Shown here one piece after another: positions 52,713-64,000 of a stretch of 64,000 nucleotides of DNA. The translations under genes and the position numbers were made by a program. Source of the stretch: Bacteroidota bacterium (lineage in GTDB: Bacteria > Bacteroidota > Ignavibacteria > Ignavibacteriales > Ignavibacteriaceae). The stretch spans positions 124,001-188,000 of the forward strand of contig JAIUOE010000003.1 of assembly GCA_020161395.1 (NCBI GenBank). Reading direction: 5' to 3'. The first letter of the stretch is position 1. Each line of letters starts with the position of its first letter. The notes beneath the pieces are model-generated. The model was not told the origin of the DNA, did not search any database, and saw only the letters and a program-made list of their open reading frames with translations.

Positions 52713-53453
52713 CTAATTGTAGATGTCAAATCTGGCAAAGCCCATTTTCTGGAGACGGTGTTTTACCGAGGTAACGAGTACCCCGATTCCATAGATGGAA
52801 CTGCGTTTGAAATTTATTGAGGAAGCTTCTTCAAAATATTTTGTCGGGCAGGTTACTTCTCCAATCTCATATCCTTTGAAGATAATCTGGGAGAGCATCT
52901 GATTATCGAAAACGAAATCATCAGAATTGGCTTCCAGATTCAGATCGCGTAGCACTTCCGCTGAAAACGCCCTGTAGCCTGTATGATATTCAGATAATTT
53001 CTGACCAACCAGCCAGTTTTGTACAAGGGTCAAAACTCTGTTTGCGATGTATTTATAGATTGGCATTCCCCCTTTTAATGCACCCTTCCCCAATATCCTT
53101 GAGGCGAGTACGACAGGATAGAGCCCGTTGGCAATGATCCAAGAAATTGAAGGAATAAGTTTAGGAGTGTATTGATAATCGGGATGCAGCATGATAACTA
53201 TATCAGCATTTAATTCGAGAGCCTTCTTGTAACACGATTTCTGATTACCCCCGTATCCCTTGTTTTTATCATGCTTAATAATATGCTTTATTCCAAGGGC
53301 TTTTCCGACTTCGGATGTATCGTCTTTGCTCGCATCATCCACAAGCACTACATCGTCCACTATATCAAATGGTATCTCATTGTAAGTCTGTTCAAGTGTT
53401 TTCGCTGCATTATAGGCAGGTAAAACAACAACTATCTTCTTATCGTTAATCAT
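52713..53453 (-). CDS. GT2 glycosyltransferase, dolichyl/polyprenyl-phosphate sugar synthase-like
   Basis: This 246-residue GT-A protein has the nucleotide-sugar sites VVVLPAYNAAKTL, LVDDASKDDT and HPDYQY. There is no membrane helix at the C-terminus. The size and motifs resemble DPM1-type enzymes that make polyprenyl-phosphate hexoses. Such lipid-linked sugars are the donors of GT39 enzymes, and a GT39 gene is convergent right beside it, so the pair may act in sequence. The gene follows the PAS sensor gene by 4 bp. Confidence 0.86.
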   Translation of the reverse strand: MINDKKIVVVLPAYNAAKTLEQTYNEIPFDIVDDVVLVDDASKDDTSEVGKALGIKHIIKHDKNKGYGGNQKSCYKKALELNADIVIMLHPDYQYTPKLIPSISWIIANGLYPVVLASRILGKGALKGGMPIYKYIANRVLTLVQNWLVGQKLSEYHTGYRAFSAEVLRDLNLEANSDDFVFDNQMLSQIIFKGYEIGEVTCPTKYFEEASSINFKRSSIYGIGVLVTSVKHRLQKMGFARFDIYN

Positions 53454-53457
53454 TTAA

Positions 53458-56400
53458 TCAGAATATTTTACTAAGTACTTCCACAAGTTTGTTTCGGAAG
53501 ATAGGCTTTGAAACAAAATCGGTGAACCCGGTTGCAATAAATTTCTCCTTGTCACCCGGGAGAACATATGCTGTGACAGCGATTATTGGAATCGACTCAA
53601 GTCCCTCCATGGTTCTTATCACTTTCAGTGCATCCAATCCATTGTATTCACCTTGAAGATTGATGTCGAGCACTATGAAATCAAATTTTTCGTTTTCAAG
53701 CATTGGTATCGCATCTTCAAAACTTTGAGAAAACTTGATCGATTTCAGCTCTTTCATCTGAACTTTAAAGAGTATCTGTGAATCAAGTTGATCCTCGATA
53801 TAAAGACAACTCATGTTACGAAGATCAATCGAAGATGGCTCCCTGTTTTCCGTCACCTTGGCGACAGAAGCAAACCGGCTTTCAGGTGGCTCCGGGGCTG
53901 GTGGTGGCGAATATGTCCTGACCGGTTCCTTTGGTACGGGTGGCTGTTCATCCCTTAGCGGGGGTTTCTGTGGAGTAACCTCTCGGGATGAAGTGTCAGG
54001 ATAAGAGGTCTGCGACGGTTTTGACGGTTTTTTCTCACTGTAATCCGACCGCGAAAAACTTGAATTGAAATCGAATGAAGTATCCGATCGCCTCGCCGGC
54101 TCCCTTAATTCATCTCTTTGCGAAGGCGGTTCTTCGAAAGATCTGCGGAAACTCTTTGTATCACTTCTCTCACTTTCCCGTCTGTCGGCTTCTCTCTTTT
54201 TTCGTCTGCTTAAGAAATCGAGTTCACTGTCAAAATCAAAATCGATATACTCGCTCTTCTCTTTTTCAGCAGATTTTAAAGGTGGTTCCTGTTTAGGCAC
54301 CAGATAATCATATTGGGAGCCGCTTACATTTTCCATTGGATTGCCAATCGCTGGAGTGTCGGCATATTCGGCTGAAGTCCTGGGTGGATTGACCTTTTCA
54401 GCGGTTATGGCAGGTCTGAAAATATTTTCCTTCTGCTCTTCCACAGCTTCCGTTTCCGAAACAAATTCCGCATTAATTGGAAGAATTAATCCAATCTCGA
54501 ACGGTAAACCCGATTTTTGAACAATTTCAAATCTGCCATTCAAGAGTGTAAACAACCGTTGCGCGGAGAAGATAGTAAATCTTGATACTCCAAATGCCCT
54601 CAACTTAGAAACATCCTGTTCTGAAAAAAGATTCTGGATGATGTAAAGGAGCTTCTGCTGAATTTTCAAGTGGTGATCTCTAAAGGTCACAATGAAATTT
54701 GCATCATCAAGCTGGTAGGCACTGATAATTACTTCACGCTCGTCAGTAACATGCGAAATTACCTTAAGAATAAGGCAGACAAGATTCAGTACTTTTTCCT
54801 GATCTGAATTTATCTGAACACCCATCGAAACCCGGTCATGAACAATTTCTTTTTTCCAGGGGCTCTGGGAATCATGCATTTCTTTGAAGACTTTCTGCAC
54901 GAGTTCATCGAGATTGAAATGAGTTTTTGTTATGTCACCAAAATGCTGCTCGATTTGTGCATATTCCGAGATGGAATCCATCGTATAGAGGAGCTTTTTT
55001 CTGTTCTCGTCAATATAACCGATTGCCTCTTCCTGCTCCTCGGAAGGAGTCTCCAGTGTGTCCTTCAATTCTGAAATAAATCCGACAATCACATTAATTG
55101 GTGTAAGAATTTCGTGGAAGATAAATGAGAGCTGCCCCGGATCTATACCTCCCGCTTTGATCTCGTGGTTGCCCTGTGTCTGTTTTTCGACATATACAAT
55201 TTTTTCGACAGGTTTGTCGACATATACAATTTTTTCGACTTCTTTTTCGACGACAACTTCTTTTGGCTCTGAAACCACATCAGCGATTCTGCCAATATAT
55301 GCTACCTGAGAAACTTCACCGTCAATTCCTGAGAATGCAACCGAGGTTACATCAATGGCAACATCAGATTTGGCACTGTTCTTTATTGTGGCACTAAAAT
55401 TATAGGGTGTTTCGCTCTTCTTAAGAAAATCGGCGCGCGAACTCTCGGAGGCGAGACTGATAATGCTGTTATTGAGAAGATCAGTCCTCTTAAAACCAAG
55501 ATGTTTTTCTACGGCGGGATTAATATAATTTATAAAACCTGTATTGTCAGTTACAATTAAGATGTCCTGAGAATATTCGAAAACTGTTCGCATCATCTGC
55601 AACTGTTCTTCGATTTCAAGAATTTTTGTTATATCTCTGACAATGTTGAAGTGGGCTTCCGCACCTTCATAAGTAAAGGCTATTTTGCATATCTCCACCT
55701 GAATTAGCGACCCATCCTTCTTTCGGTGGTTGAAAGGACCCACAAACAAGCCTTCTTCATTTTTTGCTGATTCAGCAATTGTTTGAATTTCCTCGGGAAG
55801 ATAAAGGTCAGTCAGATCCATTTGCAAAAATTCCTGCCTCGAATAGCCGTATATGTTCAAGGCGGCATCGTTTACATCAAGAAACTTAAAGGATTCCAGA
55901 TCATAAATAAAGATTGCATCAGGATTTTTGCTGATTATAAATTCATACATCTTGTTTTTTAACTTTAGGATGGTTTCAAGATTAAAATTATTGTCGTCCG
56001 CAAATATAAGATTATTCTCTGAATCCTCTCCCCCGGAGAGCTTTTTTTCATCCGACGGTCTTGCAACACCAAGGATGGCAACAAGATTATCATCAAGATC
56101 GAGAAGCGGAATTTCGATAATTTCGTGAGGAGTACCAACAGCAACCCCTTTAACTTTGTCGGAAGTCATGATTGCAATGGAGAGACTCTCTTTAAGGTAT
56201 TTTTCGAGAGCGGTGTAAAAATCGTTGATATAGTTAGGAATGAAGTTTTTTTCTGCCCTGCCCTCCATCTGCCCCGGTTTCAGGTTAAGATGGTTTGAGA
56301 ACTTGTCATTTACAAGGACATACTTCCCTTCCGAATCTTTTAACCAGATCATCTCGGTGAACTGGTTCGCCTTTGTTTGAAGTTTGTTTTTTGCGAGGTA

Positions 56401-56859
56401 GGTAAAGGGATATGACGATTCTATTTCACCAAGGAAAGTTGAAAGTTCATCCTGAATTCCAAGATCCTTCATCTCTTTTTTGGAGACATTCAGATTCAGG
56501 TGGTTGACACCTCTTTGTGATGATTCCTTGAACTGAAAGAAAAGATATTTCTCACCTGCCACTTCCGGAGATTGAACGGAGTAGCTTACTGTTATCTCTT
56601 TCCCGTTCCTCAGATAGAGGGTCACAGAGTCAGAAAAATCGGTTTTTGTCTCAGGTACCAGCAAACTCTTGAGTTTAAGCCCCTCCGAGATCAGGAACAA
56701 ATCAGCAAACGAATCATTCCCATCTTTGATGGCGAAGAGGATTTCTGCCTTCTCATTGAAAGAGAGCAACTTTCCTTTCATATCCATTATAACAAACGGA
56801 TAGACTGCACTTCCTGCGAAGCTGTCGAAAAGTTGTTTCAAAGAAGCGGCGTCGATCAT
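53458..56859 (-). CDS. Four-PAS sensor with HisKA-like helix, degenerate ATPase domain and C-terminal receiver
   Basis: This 1133-residue protein has PAS-type domains at about 1-110, 165-290, 305-430 and 435-550. A run of VEKIVYV repeats (EKIVYVDKPVEKIVYVEK) and a HisKA-like helix follow, with the phosphoacceptor region FIFHEILTPINVIVGF (His near 580). The next domain (680-800) resembles HATPase_c in length, but no N box or DxGxG loop can be found (FRDHHLKI stands there). A charged Ser/Pro/Glu linker (810-1010) leads to an intact receiver: YIEDQLDSQI, phospho-Asp in VLDINLQ near 1065, AVTAY and SKP. I infer that ATP-dependent autophosphorylation is lost or weak, so it may be a scaffold. ATG 56859 is chosen over GTG 56862. 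It sits inside the exopolysaccharide-like operon. Confidence 0.85.
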   Translation of the reverse strand: MIDAASLKQLFDSFAGSAVYPFVIMDMKGKLLSFNEKAEILFAIKDGNDSFADLFLISEGLKLKSLLVPETKTDFSDSVTLYLRNGKEITVSYSVQSPEVAGEKYLFFQFKESSQRGVNHLNLNVSKKEMKDLGIQDELSTFLGEIESSYPFTYLAKNKLQTKANQFTEMIWLKDSEGKYVLVNDKFSNHLNLKPGQMEGRAEKNFIPNYINDFYTALEKYLKESLSIAIMTSDKVKGVAVGTPHEIIEIPLLDLDDNLVAILGVARPSDEKKLSGGEDSENNLIFADDNNFNLETILKLKNKMYEFIISKNPDAIFIYDLESFKFLDVNDAALNIYGYSRQEFLQMDLTDLYLPEEIQTIAESAKNEEGLFVGPFNHRKKDGSLIQVEICKIAFTYEGAEAHFNIVRDITKILEIEEQLQMMRTVFEYSQDILIVTDNTGFINYINPAVEKHLGFKRTDLLNNSIISLASESSRADFLKKSETPYNFSATIKNSAKSDVAIDVTSVAFSGIDGEVSQVAYIGRIADVVSEPKEVVVEKEVEKIVYVDKPVEKIVYVEKQTQGNHEIKAGGIDPGQLSFIFHEILTPINVIVGFISELKDTLETPSEEQEEAIGYIDENRKKLLYTMDSISEYAQIEQHFGDITKTHFNLDELVQKVFKEMHDSQSPWKKEIVHDRVSMGVQINSDQEKVLNLVCLILKVISHVTDEREVIISAYQLDDANFIVTFRDHHLKIQQKLLYIIQNLFSEQDVSKLRAFGVSRFTIFSAQRLFTLLNGRFEIVQKSGLPFEIGLILPINAEFVSETEAVEEQKENIFRPAITAEKVNPPRTSAEYADTPAIGNPMENVSGSQYDYLVPKQEPPLKSAEKEKSEYIDFDFDSELDFLSRRKKREADRRESERSDTKSFRRSFEEPPSQRDELREPARRSDTSFDFNSSFSRSDYSEKKPSKPSQTSYPDTSSREVTPQKPPLRDEQPPVPKEPVRTYSPPPAPEPPESRFASVAKVTENREPSSIDLRNMSCLYIEDQLDSQILFKVQMKELKSIKFSQSFEDAIPMLENEKFDFIVLDINLQGEYNGLDALKVIRTMEGLESIPIIAVTAYVLPGDKEKFIATGFTDFVSKPIFRNKLVEVLSKIF

Positions 56860-56868
56860 CACACCCTT

Positions 56869-58170
56869 CTATTTACCCTTTTTCTGATCACGAATGTATG
56901 CCCGTGCCGGTTCCGAAACGGTTACGAAAACCTCATTGGATGGTTTGGAAACATATCCGTTGCGACTGATTTTAATTCTGTAGTAATATGTTCGCCCTTT
57001 TACTATCAAGGTATCATCGAATGCAGTTACATCCTGGCTGAGTATCGCAATTGCCTGATAAGTACCCCCGGCACCATCTTTTCTTTCGACAATGTTATTC
57101 TCTTCCTGATTCGAATTATCTTTCCAGGTCAACTTAATCATCTTCTTCGAAACTGCCGGGGTGTCTGCAAATACACCGACAAGATTTGTAACGGGTGTCA
57201 AATCGAAGGGCCAGGTTGTTACAGAGACCTCTTTAGAGAAACCTGAATCAGATTGAGCCACAACTTTAAGACGGTAGTAGAAGGTTCCTCCTGATGATAA
57301 ACCGCCGGAATTGTCGGTATAGGAAGTCCTGCTCAATGAAAGAGTGGCTATATTCGTCCAGAGTACGGAACTTGCCGCTCTTCTCTGGACATTAAGGAAT
57401 ACTGCGTTTGAAGCCCTGTTTACCCATGAAAGCTCCACTTCCCTGGTTCCCCAAGGGGTTGCTGTAAGACTGGTTGGTGCAAGAACACCACTTCCCGAAC
57501 CACCTTCTGAATTGATTATGGTACTGAAATTCGATTTCCCAATCTTGTTGAAACCCTTGATTTTGTAATAGTTAATTAAAAATGGCTTGGGCAAAGGCAA
57601 AAGTCGTGTATTTCCCGAAACGGTGGTGTACAGGAAGAATGACGAATTATCAGTATTTACTTCACTCAACCAAATCTCATAGCCGTCAACAAGCTTTGAA
57701 GTATCCTTCCAGGACAGAATAATATCAGATGAACCTTCAGGCTCAATTATTTCGAGTCCGTAGGGCGCAGACGGTGGTGATTTTGAAGTCACGACCGCTA
57801 TTTTTGTTTTTGTATCGCTTGCCGTTGAATTTCCACCGAGATCATACACTTTTATGTAATAACTGAATGATTTATTTACGAAAGTTGCTGAATCAAGGTT
57901 GAGAGTAACCTTGGGTCTGTTTCCGTTTTCCGCCGGGAAGCTGCCTGCAAGCAATCCGTCAACATAAATTTCCACTTTCGCAATGCCCTGGTCATCAGAT
58001 GCATCATAAATGATCTCCTGTGGTCCGAGGATTATTGTATCATTTGTAGTTGGTTTATAGAGTGCAACTGAAGGAGGGATGGAATCACTTCCACCCAGTG
58101 GTTCAACGCACGAGGAGAGAGTTAAAACTGTTATTAAAAGAAGCGCGATCGAAGCAAACTTTTTTATCAT
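56869..58170 (-). CDS. Ig/Fn3 lipoprotein
   Basis: This is a 433-residue lipoprotein, with signal LLLITVLTLSSC and Cys near 21. A bacterial Ig-like domain (SVALYKPTTNDTIILGPQ, with KVEIYVDGLLAGSF) is followed by three Fn3 domains beginning near APYGLEIIEP, APTSLTATPW and TPVTNLVGVF. Each Fn3 has the expected WKDTS/WVNRA/WKDNS strand. It is probably anchored to the outer or inner membrane and binds a partner. Its gene lies between the NodB-like gene and the PAS sensor, within the same operon. Confidence 0.85.
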   Translation of the reverse strand: MIKKFASIALLLITVLTLSSCVEPLGGSDSIPPSVALYKPTTNDTIILGPQEIIYDASDDQGIAKVEIYVDGLLAGSFPAENGNRPKVTLNLDSATFVNKSFSYYIKVYDLGGNSTASDTKTKIAVVTSKSPPSAPYGLEIIEPEGSSDIILSWKDTSKLVDGYEIWLSEVNTDNSSFFLYTTVSGNTRLLPLPKPFLINYYKIKGFNKIGKSNFSTIINSEGGSGSGVLAPTSLTATPWGTREVELSWVNRASNAVFLNVQRRAASSVLWTNIATLSLSRTSYTDNSGGLSSGGTFYYRLKVVAQSDSGFSKEVSVTTWPFDLTPVTNLVGVFADTPAVSKKMIKLTWKDNSNQEENNIVERKDGAGGTYQAIAILSQDVTAFDDTLIVKGRTYYYRIKISRNGYVSKPSNEVFVTVSEPARAYIRDQKKGK

Positions 58171-58187
58171 GATTAAATACCAAATTC

Positions 58188-60080
58188 TTAATTTTTGTAG
58201 TCTATGTAATAAATTCTGGATTCTGACGGTTTTAAATTTTTAATTCTTAATGTCAATTTTCTAAGCTCTCTGTTCACATCAGTATCAGGCAGCGGGGTGT
58301 TAATAATTTCTGTTGAAATTTTATAAGTTTTAGGCATAAGAGTGAAATCAACGGGAACAAGTACCTCTTTCAAAATGGTATTTCCCACATTCGATAGAGC
58401 TATTACCATTCTGCTTGTTCCTCTGGCTTCCACTCTAAGTTCTACCCTGTTATTGTTTGTCCACCAGGTATAAAGTACAGGCATGCTGGTTATCCACATA
58501 TCCTTTTCCTTCATATACTTGATTACATCTTTAACAACCGAAACATACTCCGGTTTCAACTGGAAATTGGTATGCAATTTCAGGACATACAATCCACCCT
58601 CAAAAATCAGTCTGTCAACATCTTCCAAGTAGGTGTAAAGCTGATAATCGTGTTCGACCAGACCGTATTTTCCTACAATTTCCTTGTCATCTCTTACAGT
58701 TTTGGTCACCGTAATAATGGCTTCCTCACCTTTAACCACATATTTTGGAACTGATCTGTCGGTCAAAGAATCGGTAATTATGTACTTTATCCCGCTTGCA
58801 GCAGCAGCCATAAGAGAGTTGTCATCAAACAATCCGTAAAGCGGCTTGATGCCTTTTAATGTACCACCAGTGGTGGTTTTGAAAGTTTTAATTGAATTAT
58901 TAAAATCCGCTTCCTGAACTTCAAGTTTTTTAAGCTTGTTCACGGTATCATTCACCGAATTCATAAATCCGATATCGACAACGCCCGAGATGTCACCATA
59001 AGCAGAAAGACTTTTGACAAGATCTGCATTCGTGCCGGTAAGTCCCCCTTCAACAAGAAAAGTAGCCTTTACCCCCTCTTGTGCCAGGATTGGAAGGAGA
59101 TTCTTGATATTTCCCGGCTCCTCACCAATAGATGCAAGAATGATGGCAGCAGCCTTTTTATTTCCGGGCCAGTCAACAATATAAGCACTCGGTTTTTTTG
59201 CAAGCCAGTTTAGAGAATTTCTTATCAGTTTGTCGAGTACAAGGTATTCTTCCCTTTGCCCTACAATTGTGATAATGTCAAATCCGTACCATACAAATCT
59301 CCCCTTGCCGTATGTGCCATAGCAGAGTCCCGAAGTATTTAGAACTTCTTCTCTAACAAGACCTGAGTCAATTTTAAAGTCATACCAAAAACTCAGTTGT
59401 TGAGTTCTGGGATCTAAAACTCTCGTCGCAACCATGTTATCCCATGTCGCAATCTTTAACCGGTACCCGGTGGGAATGTCGAATGTGATTGGAGACCCGC
59501 CTTTTAATGTCAGCAATCGCGGTGACGGAATTTTTGCTGTTTCTTTAGTAAAAAGTGTTCCGTAAACTTCCTTAAAATACTCCCATCCGCGCCACTTGCC
59601 ATCAGCAGAGAATGTGCCGGTTGCCCCGGTCGCCATAATGTTGCCGCCCTTGTCGAGATAATCTTTAATTGTAAGAATTTCCCTGTCGCTAAGAGCCTTG
59701 ATACTGGGCATGATGAGAATCTGATAATTTTCGGGAGTGAGGACTCCTTTTTCAAGATCGTCTTCAGTTATCACGGTAACGGGGAATTTATTCCCCTGGG
59801 TGTAGCGCTCCCATGCAGTCACATTATCTTTGATCCAAGTGGAACCTTTAGGGAGAAAATTCTCGGTTTTCTTTGAATAAAGAATGGCAACCTTGGTCTG
59901 GTCAGCACCAAATATTTTGGAAAATGCCTCGAGAGAAAATCCGTCAGACGCAAATGCATAAGACCCGAAGACGCCCTGAAGAATGTAATTGTAAATCAGG
60001 ACGGAGGTCACAAGCATCAGCCCTCCTGCGATTAAAATCAGGAGCGTTGTAAAAAAGGCATTTCTCTTTTTTAACGCCAC
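58188..60080 (-). CDS. Membrane-anchored Rossmann plus NodB-like protein, deacetylase motifs degenerate
   Basis: This 630-residue protein has one N-terminal helix (about 10-32). A flavodoxin/GATase-like segment follows (60-310: KVAILYSKKT, YQILIMPSIKALSDREI, GGNIMATGATGTF). A second domain (320-560) keeps the NodB layout: strand 1 AAAIILASIGEE, GVKATFLVEGG, and later IKPLYGLFDDNSLMAAA. The metal ligands of strand 1 (usually DDG) and of the HxxxH loop are absent. I infer a polysaccharide-binding or structural role. The start is GTG 60080, overlapping the preceding gene by 10 bp. PelA and PgaB are the nearest architectures I know. Confidence 0.72.
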   Translation of the reverse strand: MALKKRNAFFTTLLILIAGGLMLVTSVLIYNYILQGVFGSYAFASDGFSLEAFSKIFGADQTKVAILYSKKTENFLPKGSTWIKDNVTAWERYTQGNKFPVTVITEDDLEKGVLTPENYQILIMPSIKALSDREILTIKDYLDKGGNIMATGATGTFSADGKWRGWEYFKEVYGTLFTKETAKIPSPRLLTLKGGSPITFDIPTGYRLKIATWDNMVATRVLDPRTQQLSFWYDFKIDSGLVREEVLNTSGLCYGTYGKGRFVWYGFDIITIVGQREEYLVLDKLIRNSLNWLAKKPSAYIVDWPGNKKAAAIILASIGEEPGNIKNLLPILAQEGVKATFLVEGGLTGTNADLVKSLSAYGDISGVVDIGFMNSVNDTVNKLKKLEVQEADFNNSIKTFKTTTGGTLKGIKPLYGLFDDNSLMAAAASGIKYIITDSLTDRSVPKYVVKGEEAIITVTKTVRDDKEIVGKYGLVEHDYQLYTYLEDVDRLIFEGGLYVLKLHTNFQLKPEYVSVVKDVIKYMKEKDMWITSMPVLYTWWTNNNRVELRVEARGTSRMVIALSNVGNTILKEVLVPVDFTLMPKTYKISTEIINTPLPDTDVNRELRKLTLRIKNLKPSESRIYYIDYKN

Positions 60081-60547
60081 TTAAGATTCCCGCCTTGTCT
60101 TTGCTGTTGTGGAGCCTGCTGTTGTTGCTGCTCCTGTGCGGTTTCAGATGTAACTTTAACAAATTTCTTGGCATTCGTAGTAACAGCAGAGATAGGTGCT
60201 TCTCTTCTGGGAGGCGCATACTGCTGAGCAGCCGGAACATTCTCTGTGGCAAAATTACCGGTGACTCTGCTCGGGGCACTCGTTGCCCTATATTCGGGCG
60301 CATGGGTTGTCTCAAAGGTCTGTCCGGTTCTTCTCTGTGTCTCACGGGTCGACATGGTAGCGGAGGTCCGTTCAGAAGCCAATTCGGGAGTTACAAGTTC
60401 AGCCTGAATTGTTGCCGGGGGCACTGCTTTTGCCCTGACACCCTGAGCCTCCCTGATCTTGAAGAGTATATACGCTCCGATCGAGAGGAAGAAGGTACTG
60501 ATGGTTGCCACCAGAATGATTGTTGCGAGAATAGGTATTAATTCCAT
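60071..60547 (-). CDS. Small single-helix membrane protein with Gln-rich tail
   Basis: This 158-residue protein has one N-terminal helix (about 5-30, ATIILVATISTFFLSIGAYI) followed by a disordered region of Thr, Ala, Arg and Pro and a tail with two Gln runs. No family was recognised. It is encoded between the GT2 synthase and the NodB-like protein, overlapping the latter. Its place in the operon is like that of the small subunit PgaD, but it has one helix rather than two. Confidence 0.78.
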   Translation of the reverse strand: MELIPILATIILVATISTFFLSIGAYILFKIREAQGVRAKAVPPATIQAELVTPELASERTSATMSTRETQRRTGQTFETTHAPEYRATSAPSRVTGNFATENVPAAQQYAPPRREAPISAVTTNAKKFVKVTSETAQEQQQQQAPQQQRQGGNLKWR

Positions 60548-60565
60548 ATAAATTCCTTGTTTATT

Positions 60566-61963
60566 CTATTTACCGGTTCCGATGCGTTCCAGTTTTCCCC
60601 AGTTCATATCCAAACCGAGGAACTCTTCAATGGTCGACATCATCTTACAAATATCAATTGCAAATACGAAAAACATTCTGTACACTAAAGAATAAGGTAC
60701 AAGTCGTAATTCTTCATCTTCCACAGCTACACAATATAGTGCCGTCACTGTATCAAGTAAAGCCAAAAATACCCACCAGAAAAATATCAGACTGGTGTAA
60801 CCGTAAAAAATCGAGACCACTATAAAGAAAAAGTTGGCAACTATATTCATCGTAGGCCAGATCAATGCTTCATAAAACATTGTCCAGAGAATAAAGGTAT
60901 CACCAAAGTTAATCGTGGGATTATAAAGCAAATTTTTATGTTTTCTGATCGCCTGGAGAATTCCCCTCGTCCAGCGATATCTTTGCTTCAGAAGCTGCTG
61001 CAGCTTAACCGGAGCCTCCGTCCATGCAATTGCTGTTGGTTCATAATAAACCTTCCATCCCTTGGATAATATCTTCAAGGTAAGATCTGCATCTTCAGCA
61101 AATGTGTCGCTCGAATAGTAACCGACTTCTTCAATTGCTTTTTTTCTGAACAAACCGATGGGTCCCGGTATAATATTTACGAGTTTAAGAAAACTCTGAG
61201 CTGCCCGTGCCATGTTAAGACCTTCGATGTACTCGAGAGCCTGAAGGTCGGCGTAAAATCTTTTTCTGTTCAATACTTTTACATTACCTGCAACAGCTCC
61301 GATTCTTGGATCGATAAAATGTCTGGCGGCATTTCTGATTGTTTCAGGTGAAAGCTGACTGTCACCATCCATACAAAGCACTATCTCGGATTTCGAGTAG
61401 CTGATCCCGGCGTTCAAAGCTCTTGCCTTGCCGCCATTCGGCTTACTGATCAAAGAAACCTTTACTTTTCCGTATAATCCCTGCTGAAATCCGACGAGTG
61501 TCTTCGCCACATCGTAAGTATTGTCAGATGAACCGTCGTTAACGATAATAATTTCATAATTTGAATATTCAAGTTCAAGAAGCGACATGATCGCATCTTT
61601 GAGTAATATTCCTTCATTGTACACTGGTACTATGACCGATACAAAGGGCTGAAAATCAGGTCTCTTCGAAAAAGTGTAGTTATTCAGCCATAAATAAGCC
61701 ATCCCCAAAAGTCCGAAATATCTGATCAACAGAATCAAAAGGAACAGCAGCAGGGAAATCATCGTAGAGTACTCGAAGAGAGCGGAATACGACAGTACGG
61801 TCATTGGCATCGTAAAGACAATCACGAGAATCAATGCAAGCGAAGACACACCGGAAGAAATCATCCTTCTAAGAATTTGTCTAAGACGATTCTCTCCGGC
61901 AACTTCAGTCGCTTCAGTGTTTTTAACAGTGATCCGGGTAGATCTTATCTTATTTTGAGCCAT
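60566..61963 (-). CDS. Processive GT2 glycan synthase (PgaC/IcaA-like)
   Basis: This is a 465-residue membrane glycosyltransferase. Two to three N-terminal helices precede a GT-A domain with VNDGSSDNTYD, CMDGDSQLSP, the acceptor motif TFAEDADLTL and QRYRWTRG (QxxRW), the full set of processive beta-glycan synthases. Several C-terminal helices follow. There is no PilZ domain. Such enzymes build poly-GlcNAc, hyaluronan or cellulose and move the chain across the inner membrane. The absence of PilZ and the TPR-porin neighbour favour a poly-GlcNAc-type synthase. The sugar cannot be read from the sequence. Confidence 0.93.
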   Translation of the reverse strand: MAQNKIRSTRITVKNTEATEVAGENRLRQILRRMISSGVSSLALILVIVFTMPMTVLSYSALFEYSTMISLLLFLLILLIRYFGLLGMAYLWLNNYTFSKRPDFQPFVSVIVPVYNEGILLKDAIMSLLELEYSNYEIIIVNDGSSDNTYDVAKTLVGFQQGLYGKVKVSLISKPNGGKARALNAGISYSKSEIVLCMDGDSQLSPETIRNAARHFIDPRIGAVAGNVKVLNRKRFYADLQALEYIEGLNMARAAQSFLKLVNIIPGPIGLFRKKAIEEVGYYSSDTFAEDADLTLKILSKGWKVYYEPTAIAWTEAPVKLQQLLKQRYRWTRGILQAIRKHKNLLYNPTINFGDTFILWTMFYEALIWPTMNIVANFFFIVVSIFYGYTSLIFFWWVFLALLDTVTALYCVAVEDEELRLVPYSLVYRMFFVFAIDICKMMSTIEEFLGLDMNWGKLERIGTGK

Positions 61964-62006
61964 TGGTTCCTTTATTCTTTTCCACAGTTAATCATCAAAT
62001 TCCATA

Positions 62007-62037
62007 CCAAACTACAAAGTTGCATATACAGTTCAAA
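62007..62037 (-). promoter_or_regulatory. Weak candidate promoter upstream of the GT2 synthase
   Basis: The minus strand reads TTTG (62037-62034), 19 nt, TAGTTTGG (62014-62007), one base off the TAnnTTTG consensus. It would allow the synthase and following genes to be transcribed apart from the TPR-porin gene. A 5-bp inverted repeat TCTCA/TGAGA lies at 62072-62084. Confidence 0.35.
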
Positions 62038-62088
62038 TAATCAATTTTTTCGTTTTTAAATTTCATCGAATATCTCATTTTGAGACGC

Positions 62089-64000
62089 CTAAAGCATCCA
62101 GAATAGTGAGGCGCTGAAGGATCTCGAGCTGTACCCGGTTGTTTCTCTGGAGGTACTTCCGATTTGGGCTCTACCGTTTATCCGGAGATTGGAAAGAATA
62201 TTATACGATCCCTGAAAGTAGAATTCCCTCAACCAGTAGGAACTTTCAGGAATGTAACCGAATCTTCCGCCCGCAGAAAGATCAAGCTGATCATCCTTGT
62301 AAAAATTCCAGTCGGCGAACAAACTGTGCGACAGGAAACTCTGCGGTGAATAATAGAATATTGACTTCCTGGCGTATATCGTCGAATAGAATTCGTAACC
62401 TGCCAGTAACTCGGGATAGAAGTATCTGCCGACTCTCAATTCAGTATTGGCTCCCCTGTTGCCATCTGATATCATCAAATAGGTATAAGCTCCTGAGACT
62501 CTGTATTTTGAGGGAAGATTATACCATCCTTCACCTTTTATCATTTCCACTCTGAGTCTGTCTCTTAATGCTCCAAAAGGATAAACCAGCGCTGCCGAAT
62601 AAAGCATGGTGGCAGCTTCCTGTTGGATATAAGTAATCTGAGCATGATACTCTTTCTCAACATTCGCACGAATAAATGCCTCGTACAAAGGATATTTTTT
62701 CTTTGGCGACAAGAACGATTGTTCACCATATGAAAGTCCAATCAGAAAAGGTTCAAACGGTCGAATGAACAGAGACCCCTTCCAGGTATTCAATTCCACC
62801 TTTGTGTAGGGACTCGCAAGTCGCCCCAGACTTCCCTGCAAACCAAGAGATAAAAAGGATGTGATTCCCATATCTGATGCAATGCCGTAATTTAAATAGC
62901 TGAAATCAGTATTGTCACCGAAATATGAGATAAACGGATTTAACAGAATGTACTGTGGAAACGAACCAAGCAGTGCACCCAGACCGGTGACGGGCAACCA
63001 GCCAATTCTCTGATTTATAAGCGCTATTTGAGTTGTGTCAGTATTTCCGACCAAAAGCGAATCGTAAATGTCCCGCGCTCTACCATACTCTTGAGTCTGT
63101 GCGTAGGCGTCACCAAGAAACAGTTTAACTGCAAAATCTGCGTTATCCTCTTTCACAAGTCTCTCAAACTCGGTGATCGATTTAGTGTAGTCACCTTTGA
63201 AGAAAAATACTTTCGCTCTCTCCAGATCGATAAGGTAATCGTATTCACCGGTCAGAAGAGAATCATAAATTTGAATTGCCCTGTCATAATTCTTCAAACA
63301 GGAATTAATGTCAGCATATTCCTTCAGGACTGTTCTGTTGCCTTCATGCTTCGAAAGAAAGTCATCATAAACTGTTAGAGCACCGGTACAATCACCCGCC
63401 CGGATCATCTCTCTTCCCTTTTCGAGACTCTCAAAAAGTGCTTCCTCGGCTGCTCTCGCTTTGGAAGTCTCCAAATTGGAGAGAAGCGTTTCCAGTTCCG
63501 GATGTGTCGGCTCGATGGTTTTAATCATCTCGATATATTCGGCTGACTTGTCAAAATTATTTTTTTTCATCTCCAAAGATGCCAGTCCGACGAGTGCTGT
63601 TACCTCTTTAGGTTTTGCTTTAAGTACTTCGTTTAAGTACTGATATGCCAGATCTTCATCTTTTCCAAGCCAGACCGATACGATTCCTCTTTGTAATTTC
63701 AACTCGAGATCTGTTGGATCTTTCGCAATACAGAAGTCAAGCTGATCCAAGGCTGTGTAATTATCCTGATAGTCAACAGCAATTCTTGCATATATCTTTC
63801 TCAGTTTACAGTCAGGAGAATCAGGATTTGCTTCGAAGTAAGCTTTCAGCAGGTTAAAAGCTTCTTCATTCCTCTCAAGATTACTAAGCAATCCCACCAT
63901 CTCTGTGAGAGCCTTGATGTCGTTTGGATTTTTTTGAAGCAGTTTTTCAAGTTCTAAAATCCGTTTTGTATAACTTTCAACTCTTACGGCTTTAACTTTT
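62089..64000 (-). CDS. TPR plus outer-membrane barrel protein (PgaA-like), 5' end outside window
   Basis: The frame stays open to the window edge, so 636 residues are visible and the N-terminus and signal peptide are missing. The first 330 or so residues are TPR repeats (for example EEAFNLLKAYFEANPDSPD and KVFFFKGDYTKSITEFERLV). The rest is beta-rich with aromatic strands (YGIASDMGITSFLSLGLQGS, YLMISDGNRGANTELRVGRY) and ends in SRSFSASLFWML, a barrel terminus. TPR plus barrel is the layout of PgaA and similar exopolysaccharide export porins. It is the first gene of the cluster and lies 126 bp before the synthase. Confidence 0.85.
   Translation of the reverse strand, partial: KVKAVRVESYTKRILELEKLLQKNPNDIKALTEMVGLLSNLERNEEAFNLLKAYFEANPDSPDCKLRKIYARIAVDYQDNYTALDQLDFCIAKDPTDLELKLQRGIVSVWLGKDEDLAYQYLNEVLKAKPKEVTALVGLASLEMKKNNFDKSAEYIEMIKTIEPTHPELETLLSNLETSKARAAEEALFESLEKGREMIRAGDCTGALTVYDDFLSKHEGNRTVLKEYADINSCLKNYDRAIQIYDSLLTGEYDYLIDLERAKVFFFKGDYTKSITEFERLVKEDNADFAVKLFLGDAYAQTQEYGRARDIYDSLLVGNTDTTQIALINQRIGWLPVTGLGALLGSFPQYILLNPFISYFGDNTDFSYLNYGIASDMGITSFLSLGLQGSLGRLASPYTKVELNTWKGSLFIRPFEPFLIGLSYGEQSFLSPKKKYPLYEAFIRANVEKEYHAQITYIQQEAATMLYSAALVYPFGALRDRLRVEMIKGEGWYNLPSKYRVSGAYTYLMISDGNRGANTELRVGRYFYPELLAGYEFYSTIYARKSIFYYSPQSFLSHSLFADWNFYKDDQLDLSAGGRFGYIPESSYWLREFYFQGSYNILSNLRINGRAQIGSTSRETTGYSSRSFSASLFWML

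Follow-up and report, generated by a model that had tools for sequence, protein, structure and literature searches.

Results

Gene organization of the locus

The window examined here is a 64,000-nucleotide stretch, positions 124001-188000 of contig C3 in a 4.07-Mb genome (G000), and it ends in a group of genes for what is very probably a conserved polysaccharide secretion system. Seven open reading frames (ORFs) lie between 52713 and 64000, all on the minus strand, with gaps of 4-125 bases and an overlap of 10 bases between the small-protein and NodB-like genes. Profile searches identified a GT2 synthase, a TPR protein, a PAS/HisKA/receiver protein, a NodB-like domain with an alpha/beta domain, a Big_7/fn3 protein and a second GT2. 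In positions, strand and domain calls this agrees with the initial annotation of the window, which had described seven close or overlapping genes on one strand. The features, with lengths in amino acids (aa), are as follows.

62089..64000, minus strand: TPR/outer-membrane barrel protein; the C-terminal 636 of 964 aa, with the 5' part of the gene reaching contig C3 position 188983
60566..61963, minus strand: processive GT2 polysaccharide synthase; 465 aa, with D199-G-D201, E290-D291 and Q327-RYRW
60071..60547, minus strand: small protein; 158 aa, with one N-terminal membrane helix, a variable middle and a conserved basic/Trp C-terminus (KWR)
58188..60080, minus strand: PelADA-like (NodB-like) protein; 630 aa, assigned from a predicted model and residue counts
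56869..58170, minus strand: predicted lipoprotein with Big_7 and fn3 domains; 433 aa, with an LSSC lipobox read by eye
53458..56862, minus strand: PAS - HisKA - degenerate ATP-binding region - receiver protein; 1134 aa
52713..53453, minus strand: DPM1-like GT2; 246 aa, a neighbor and not a conserved operon member

In the lipoprotein, Big_7 scores above its cut-off and fn3, at 24.4 bits, lies just below its cut-off of 25. The small protein has no Pfam match at all, and this is why it has no PgaD match.

The operon recognized in the initial annotation is real, but two conserved members beyond the window end had been missed. The TPR gene is cut by the window end. Past that end, upstream on the same strand, a gap of 8 bases separates it from a KaiC-like gene of 432 aa, and a GH9 gene of 567 aa also lies on this side. 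The order of transcription is GH9, KaiC-like, TPR/barrel, GT2 synthase, small protein, NodB-like, Fn3 lipoprotein, PAS and DPM1-like GT2.

Conservation and distribution

Of 133 relatives scanned among named genomes, 80 were kept, and the named set and the other sample sets overlap, being drawn from the same underlying genomes. The 80 include Ignavibacteria, Melioribacteraceae, generic Bacteroidota metagenome-assembled genomes, one 'Chlorobiaceae', one 'Chlorobiota' and the isolate Stygiobacter electus 09-Me (L114), which carries the operon. Gene counts around their loci take as denominators only the loci with enough flank. In relatives outside the genus the gene order is kept, and the NodB-like protein is 37-53% identical. 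The small-protein gene is upstream of the NodB-like gene in 79/79 named loci, and the synthase gene is present in 71/71. The other members are also regularly present: PAS in 60/60, TPR in 53/57, KaiC-like in 49/52, Fn3 in 65/70 and GH9 in 42/46. The identities of the NodB-like protein correlate with those of the synthase (r 0.80), the small protein (0.82) and the PAS protein (0.86), and these correlations show only common descent. The DPM1-like GT2, which the initial annotation had added to the system, is rejected as a member, since it is beside the operon in 1/54 named loci; it also adjoins the operon in the genus relatives L032 and L033.

The NodB-like protein was found in 38/41 genomes of the genus, family and order sample. 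Among 247 phylum genomes its profile gave 47 matches at E <= 0.001, made up of 34 strong ones (E 1.4e-38 or lower) and 13 weak ones (E 4e-7 to 9e-4). The synthase profile at E <= 1e-110 found the same 34/247 genomes as the NodB-like profile at E <= 1e-30, with none discordant. These 34 genomes are 25 of the order and nine in three other families (f23, f35 and f36); the other sampled families of the same class have neither protein at those thresholds. In the nine distant loci (L155-L163) the KaiC-like, TPR, synthase and NodB-like genes stand together as a smaller form of the system, with no GH9, PAS or clear Fn3 gene. The KaiC-like gene was not seen in L156, where the locus ends in the TPR gene, and neither the KaiC-like nor the TPR gene was seen in L160. 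The small-protein model has no match in L161-L163, where an ORF of 327-336 aa with an N-terminal membrane-like stretch (e.g., L161:8372-9379) takes the place of the small protein. Six of the nine loci have a second NodB-like gene.

Co-occurrence in related genomes, which the initial annotation had set as a check, is thereby upheld, as is its idea of a distinct surface-polymer combination: the full system belongs to one order, and three other families in the phylum sample have a reduced form. It is real, conserved and of order level, and compared with the first guess it gains genes at one end and loses one at the other. A literature search limited to openly licensed PMC papers found no paper on this operon, and the words Ignavibacteri, Bacteroidetes and Chlorobi do not occur in the main text of a survey of synthase-dependent operons (PMC7112194).

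The synthase, the exporter and the GH9 protein

The DGD, ED and QRYRW motifs of the synthase are invariant in 20/20 sequences. Among named families the best match is PgaC/IcaA (TIGR03937; 198.9 bits, cut-off 422.3), followed by NodC (101 bits) and CelA/UDP-forming cellulose synthase (TIGR03030; 70.8 bits, cut-off 699.1), and among solved proteins the nearest in sequence are hyaluronan synthases. The genome has no second strong copy of it (881 bits for this gene, 45 for the next match).

For the TPR/barrel protein, the window part was modeled by AlphaFold2 with 34 sequences. The model (mean predicted local distance difference test score, pLDDT, 91; predicted template modeling score, pTM, 0.51) shows a TPR superhelix together with 16 strands, the latter at 350-635. 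Its top five VIA-align rows are polysaccharide secretins, namely 4y25 (Z 25.5), 6tzk (23.5), 9b8a (23.4), 9h80 (23.3) and 9b8h (23.2), and the sixth is a TPR protein (Z 18.9). 6tzk, 9b8a and 9b8h are BcsC and 9h80 is PelBC; 4y25, which we take to be PgaA, is entitled a bacterial polysaccharide outer membrane secretin. The first two Foldseek rows are also BcsC. In contrast to these structural matches, the PgaA sequence model gives the 636-aa window part 27 bits against a cut-off of 367. The initial annotation had named two outcomes that would speak against it, namely genes that do not co-occur in relatives and a 62089-64000 protein that lacks a porin-like barrel in structure prediction. Since the genes co-occur and a barrel of 16 strands with secretin matches is predicted, neither outcome was found.

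The best solved match of the GH9 protein is the endoglucanase 3x17, and its best solved matches are beta-1,4-glucanases. The NE acid site is present in 27/27 GH9 ORFs and DAGD in 19/27; of the eight without DAGD, seven are short and one (L056) has 562 aa. The GH9 gene may point to beta-1,4 links in the polymer.

The NodB-like protein has lost the metal site of its family

The model of the NodB-like protein, built with 69 sequences (mean pLDDT 86), shows a membrane helix (residues 8-38), an alpha/beta/alpha domain (61-297), a NodB barrel (about 303-545) and a beta domain (546-630). The alpha/beta/alpha domain matches GH42 alpha/beta domains (Z about 20-22). The NodB barrel matches the NodB protein 3rxz (Z 26.8) and PuuE allantoinase (3cl6; Z 24.1, the second-best VIA-align row), and the CE4 pseudoenzyme BA3943 (7bkf) is a further structural match (Z 18.3). 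PelA of Pseudomonas (9cgy, CE21) was found by Foldseek at rank 7 with E 1.4e-10. PF01522 is present in 67/69 NodB-like proteins at E <= 0.1. The same domain order is seen in PelADA of Bacillus cereus (CBM114-CE26), as compared by eye with its published description: a helix, an alpha/beta/alpha domain (62-253), an esterase (254-543) and a beta-rich domain (PMC13254593). In the same paper, the PelADA membrane helix has been modeled against the inner-membrane transporter PelG (PMC13254593). PelADA has Asp263, His350, His354 and His488 around zinc, whereas the orthologues of the NodB-like protein never have both metal His.

Residues were counted in 91 distinct full-length orthologues, with the metal His places 373 and 377 set by sequence alignment to CE4 structures. 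His is found at place 373 in 0/91 and at place 377 in 2/91, never both together, which bears out the loss of metal ligands proposed in the initial annotation. The Asp-His-His triad (MT1, MT2) that binds metal in CE4, CE18, CE21 and CE26 deacetylases is not present. The Arg of motif 3 (MT3) is found in 0/91. By contrast with these lost ligands, ten residues at or close to the former active site (D369, G371, D378, D437, S438, R442, D464, D465, H503 and Q507) are invariant in 91/91. D437 and H503 are assigned to the MT4 and MT5 places by their position behind the corresponding strands and by alignment with the metal-ligand copies. In the nine distant relatives there is no His pair and H503 is absent in 9/9; D437-S438 is kept in six (f35, f36), and Asp-Asp stands at the MT1 place in three (f23).

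Relative to the nearest relative, G003, the ratio of nonsynonymous to synonymous substitution rates (dN/dS) is 0.017 for the NodB-like gene and 0.014 for its NodB domain; the kinase-like region (0.017) and malate dehydrogenase (0.011) serve for comparison. Relative to G001 the synonymous sites are saturated, which makes dN/dS unusable there. The old enzyme folds seem to be kept under strong purifying selection. We consider it probable, with good confidence, that classical metal-dependent deacetylation has been lost in the single-copy NodB-like protein. The initial annotation described a system without a functional deacetylase. This is right in that the CE4 metal site is gone but is too simple, because ten pocket residues are invariant, two other NodB-family proteins are present in the genome and second copies with metal ligands exist.

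A tandem second copy with metal ligands

When the order sample was queried with the second NodB-like copy of G176, located at L164:9087-10904, 124/146 genomes matched at E <= 1e-30 (95/108 of the best ones). G176 and G317, of one genus, are the only ones in this sample with a close homologue of the tandem second copy that has metal ligands. This copy has HGDDH and FRPPE; of its two MT1 places the second is Asp and the first Cys. It also keeps D437, R442, H503 and Q507. The first copies beside it have changed, by D369A, R442N and H503I in G176 and by D369A, R442K and Y484L in G317, while 25/25 invariants of the alpha/beta/alpha domain stay. Since the invariant residues are lost only where a metal-ligand copy adjoins, the pocket looks functional rather than decayed. 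The simplest reading of these sequences is that whatever the pocket does in a single-copy protein, the metal-ligand copy is able to do in its stead. The metal-ligand copy in this genus may also point to acetyl groups on the polymer. Among L032-L146 there are 11 second NodB copies of more than 350 aa (10 distinct), and H-x3-H occurs only in that of L118, far from the MT2 place. Among L155-L165 there are eight, of which that of G176 has HGDDH and that of L159 has H-x3-H near its end.

Control proteins and cyclic di-GMP

Both the H-box His and the receiver Asp are present in 63/63 full-length PAS proteins. The DxGxG (G1) box is found by pattern in 0/63, the N and G1 boxes are lacking in the alignment too, and there is no HATPase_c among the Pfam matches of the window protein (HisKA 28.0 bits, cut-off 26.9). 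The protein had been called a pseudo-kinase, and the missing ATP-binding boxes support this. We infer that it is a phosphorelay adaptor. A LexA-like gene (e.g., L084:17118-17762), so labeled by eye from its N-terminus, lies downstream of the PAS gene in the same orientation, no more than 1.5 kb away, in 27/60 loci; the window does not show this arrangement.

The KaiC domain (PF06745) scores 62.8 bits against a cut-off of 26.6 and is present in 31/31 KaiC-like proteins. Glu is absent from both catalytic places in 31/31, and the Walker A Lys is Arg in 25/31 and Lys in 6/31. These are the places of the catalytic Glu pair and the Walker A Lys in KaiC-type ATPases. Of six distant KaiC-like proteins, two have a Walker-A-like pattern with Arg and four have no such pattern. 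The C-terminal domain was considered as a degenerate GGDEF domain, and this was not supported, since hhalign gave a probability of 0.4% against GGDEF-family domains from 21 genomes, which are themselves degenerate, with one mis-extracted. There is no GGDEF among the Pfam matches of the 31 proteins.

PilZ has no match in the genome. The only PF00990 match (G000:C7:67118-67570, L166) is a GAF-like protein, about 634 aa long, that lacks the GGDEF motif; the 21 genomes searched (this one and L167-L186) have one PF00990 match apiece. The layout of this protein gave an impression of PelD. Because the GGDEF protein is degenerate and PilZ is missing, control by cyclic di-GMP (c-di-GMP) is unlikely, as judged from these two families.

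Comparison with known secretion systems

On the features tested, membership in the known Pga, Pel or Bcs systems is rejected. The locus is like Pga/Ica in its GT2, which is nearest to PgaC/IcaA, in its exporter of TPR and a 16-strand barrel and in having a NodB-type protein in the operon. However, the synthase and TPR protein are below the PgaC and PgaA cut-offs, there is no PgaB hydrolase domain (GHL13, PF14883; no match in this genome, while the E. coli control matches) and no PgaD match, the NodB protein has no metal site, and KaiC-like, GH9, Fn3 and PAS proteins are added. Unlike Pel, the synthase here is a GT2, and PelG (PF16933) has no match in this genome, while the Thermotoga maritima control matches. 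Bcs is similar in its GT2 synthase, in a cellulase-family hydrolase gene nearby and in the BcsC-like exporter, but the synthase here is far below the CelA cut-off, and BcsB (PF03170; no match in the genome, with controls matching in 2/14) and PilZ are missing. Bcs systems usually have GH8, whereas here the hydrolase is GH9. Taken singly, the parts work like theirs: the exporter is of PgaA/BcsC/PelB type, the synthase is PgaC-like and the periplasmic protein resembles PelADA.

For the NodB-like protein itself, two further comparisons are useful. PuuE is similar in its NodB fold, in the kept MT4 Asp and MT5 His and in the lost metal site, but it is a soluble purine enzyme with no CBM-like domain and no membrane helix. 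The CE4 pseudoenzymes (BA3943, 7bkf) have the NodB fold as well, and their entry titles indicate that classical activity is missing, but they match a single domain only, and to our knowledge BA3943 does not belong to a secretion operon. EcCDA is described as probably inactive (PMC10967932), and the catalytic motifs are retained in relatives of Agd3 from bacterial clusters (PMC7229062).

Discussion

Known Gram-negative synthase-dependent systems rely on c-di-GMP, and Pga and Pel also on a metal-dependent deacetylase. The order-wide system described here seems to have dropped both while keeping the enzyme folds. We favor, with moderate confidence, the explanation that the locus encodes a synthase-dependent exopolysaccharide machine of the Ignavibacteriales in which the old pocket is a polymer guide. 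The GT2, judged from its family and its intact motifs, would polymerize a beta-glycan and push the chain across the inner membrane, accompanied by the one-helix small protein and the PelADA-like protein, each with a single predicted membrane helix. The PelADA-like protein may take the emerging chain in the groove of its alpha/beta/alpha domain and in the old deacetylase pocket and pass it on, and the TPR superhelix and predicted 16-strand barrel would then carry it through the outer membrane. The GH9 protein could trim or release the chain. The KaiC-like and PAS/receiver proteins, in which the usual catalytic residues are gone, would control the synthase. This control could operate through nucleotide or partner binding and receiver phosphorylation, and not through c-di-GMP. 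What is new to this system is the variant combination of synthase-dependent secretion; the polymer and the exact role of the NodB-like protein are those suggested by its parts. For the pocket alone, the chances seem evenly balanced that it acts by binding and guiding the polymer.

Several points weigh against this explanation. The polymer, expression and interactions are predictions from sequence and models, and the loss of a metal site does not exclude catalysis. MT1 is not exactly alignable; its acids vary, with an acid at 320 in 55-60% of the rows. Since 50 columns of the NodB-like protein are invariant in the 91 rows, many of them in the other domain, the conservation of the pocket is not special. 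The match to 9cgy has a high root-mean-square deviation (16 A), as expected if the domains are rotated. Two other NodB-family (PF01522) proteins elsewhere in the genome could deacetylate in trans. The natural experiment of the tandem copies is confined to one genus and two genomes. The NodB-like protein was not found in G004, G016 and G020, three of the 41 relatives. GH9 is missing beside the operon in 4/46 named loci, in G176 (L164) and in all nine distant loci.

The NodB-like protein could instead still be an enzyme, one that modifies the polymer without a metal (by de-N- or O-acetylation or at another bond) through the MT4 Asp, the MT5 His and rebuilt residues. We regard this as rather unlikely. 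PuuE (3CL6) is described as a non-metal-dependent NodB enzyme without the MT1 Asp and second MT2 His, in which the MT4 Asp and MT5 His are kept (PMC10967932), and it provides a precedent without a metal site. That PuuE is the second-best structural match (Z 24.1), and that D437 and H503 stand at the MT4 and MT5 places in 91/91, argue in the same direction. D369, R442 and H503 are relaxed only beside a metal-ligand copy, which would fit the swap of one activity for another. On the other side, the MT1 acids are not conserved, the MT3 Arg is gone from all 91, and H503 is absent in 9/9 of the f35, f36 and f23 relatives, so that a metal-independent chemistry would be confined to the order. We know of no metal-independent polysaccharide deacetylase, and this also counts against such an enzyme. 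A fuller version, in which the single-copy protein is a metal-independent polysaccharide-modifying enzyme derived from a PelADA-type deacetylase, within a c-di-GMP-free machine under a KaiC-like pseudo-ATPase and a PAS pseudo-kinase, is slightly less likely again.

We consider it improbable that the locus is a divergent poly-GlcNAc (Pga) system for which another NodB protein of the genome deacetylates in trans. PgaC/IcaA is the best named family of the synthase and 4y25 the best barrel match, and the genome has two further PF01522 proteins; however, 199 bits are far under the PgaC cut-off of 422, as are 27 under 367 for PgaA with the window part of the TPR protein. GHL13 and a PgaD match are absent, c-di-GMP machinery was not found, and the neighboring hydrolase is a GH9 protein whose best solved matches are beta-1,4-glucanases. 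It is very improbable that the cluster serves glycan breakdown or uptake, with GH9 and binding proteins, rather than secretion. GH9 is a common cellulase family and Fn3/Big_7 domains occur in glycan-degrading systems, but the processive GT2 is in 71/71 loci and GH9 in 42/46, the barrel matches secretins and not TonB receptors, and the nine distant loci keep the synthase without GH9.

If the polymer-guide explanation or a metal-free enzyme is true, a deacetylase chassis can take on such a role. The system would mean that a matrix polymer is to be sought in these little-studied bacteria, and it would warn against counting the GH9 and NodB genes of Ignavibacteriales as genes for cellulose or chitin degradation. 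The genus with the metal-ligand second copy offers a direct test of the role of the pocket.

Neighboring genes

An MBOAT acyltransferase, an AMP-binding enzyme and an SGNH/GDSL protein are encoded at L001:13014-17931, about 10 kb upstream of the operon in this genome. Its MBOAT and SGNH genes raised the idea that the polymer may be O-acetylated. In the few loci for which single genes were listed, an MBOAT model built from one sequence found no MBOAT. An SGNH gene of the same family as that in this genome lies between the TPR and synthase genes in 20/57 named loci. A fatty-acid-hydroxylase-like gene (L001:7155-7805) adjoins GH9, and such a gene is near the operon in 20/43 named loci. Elsewhere in the genome (G000:C2:194504-195513), a GT2 gene and a 214-aa NodB-family gene are side by side.

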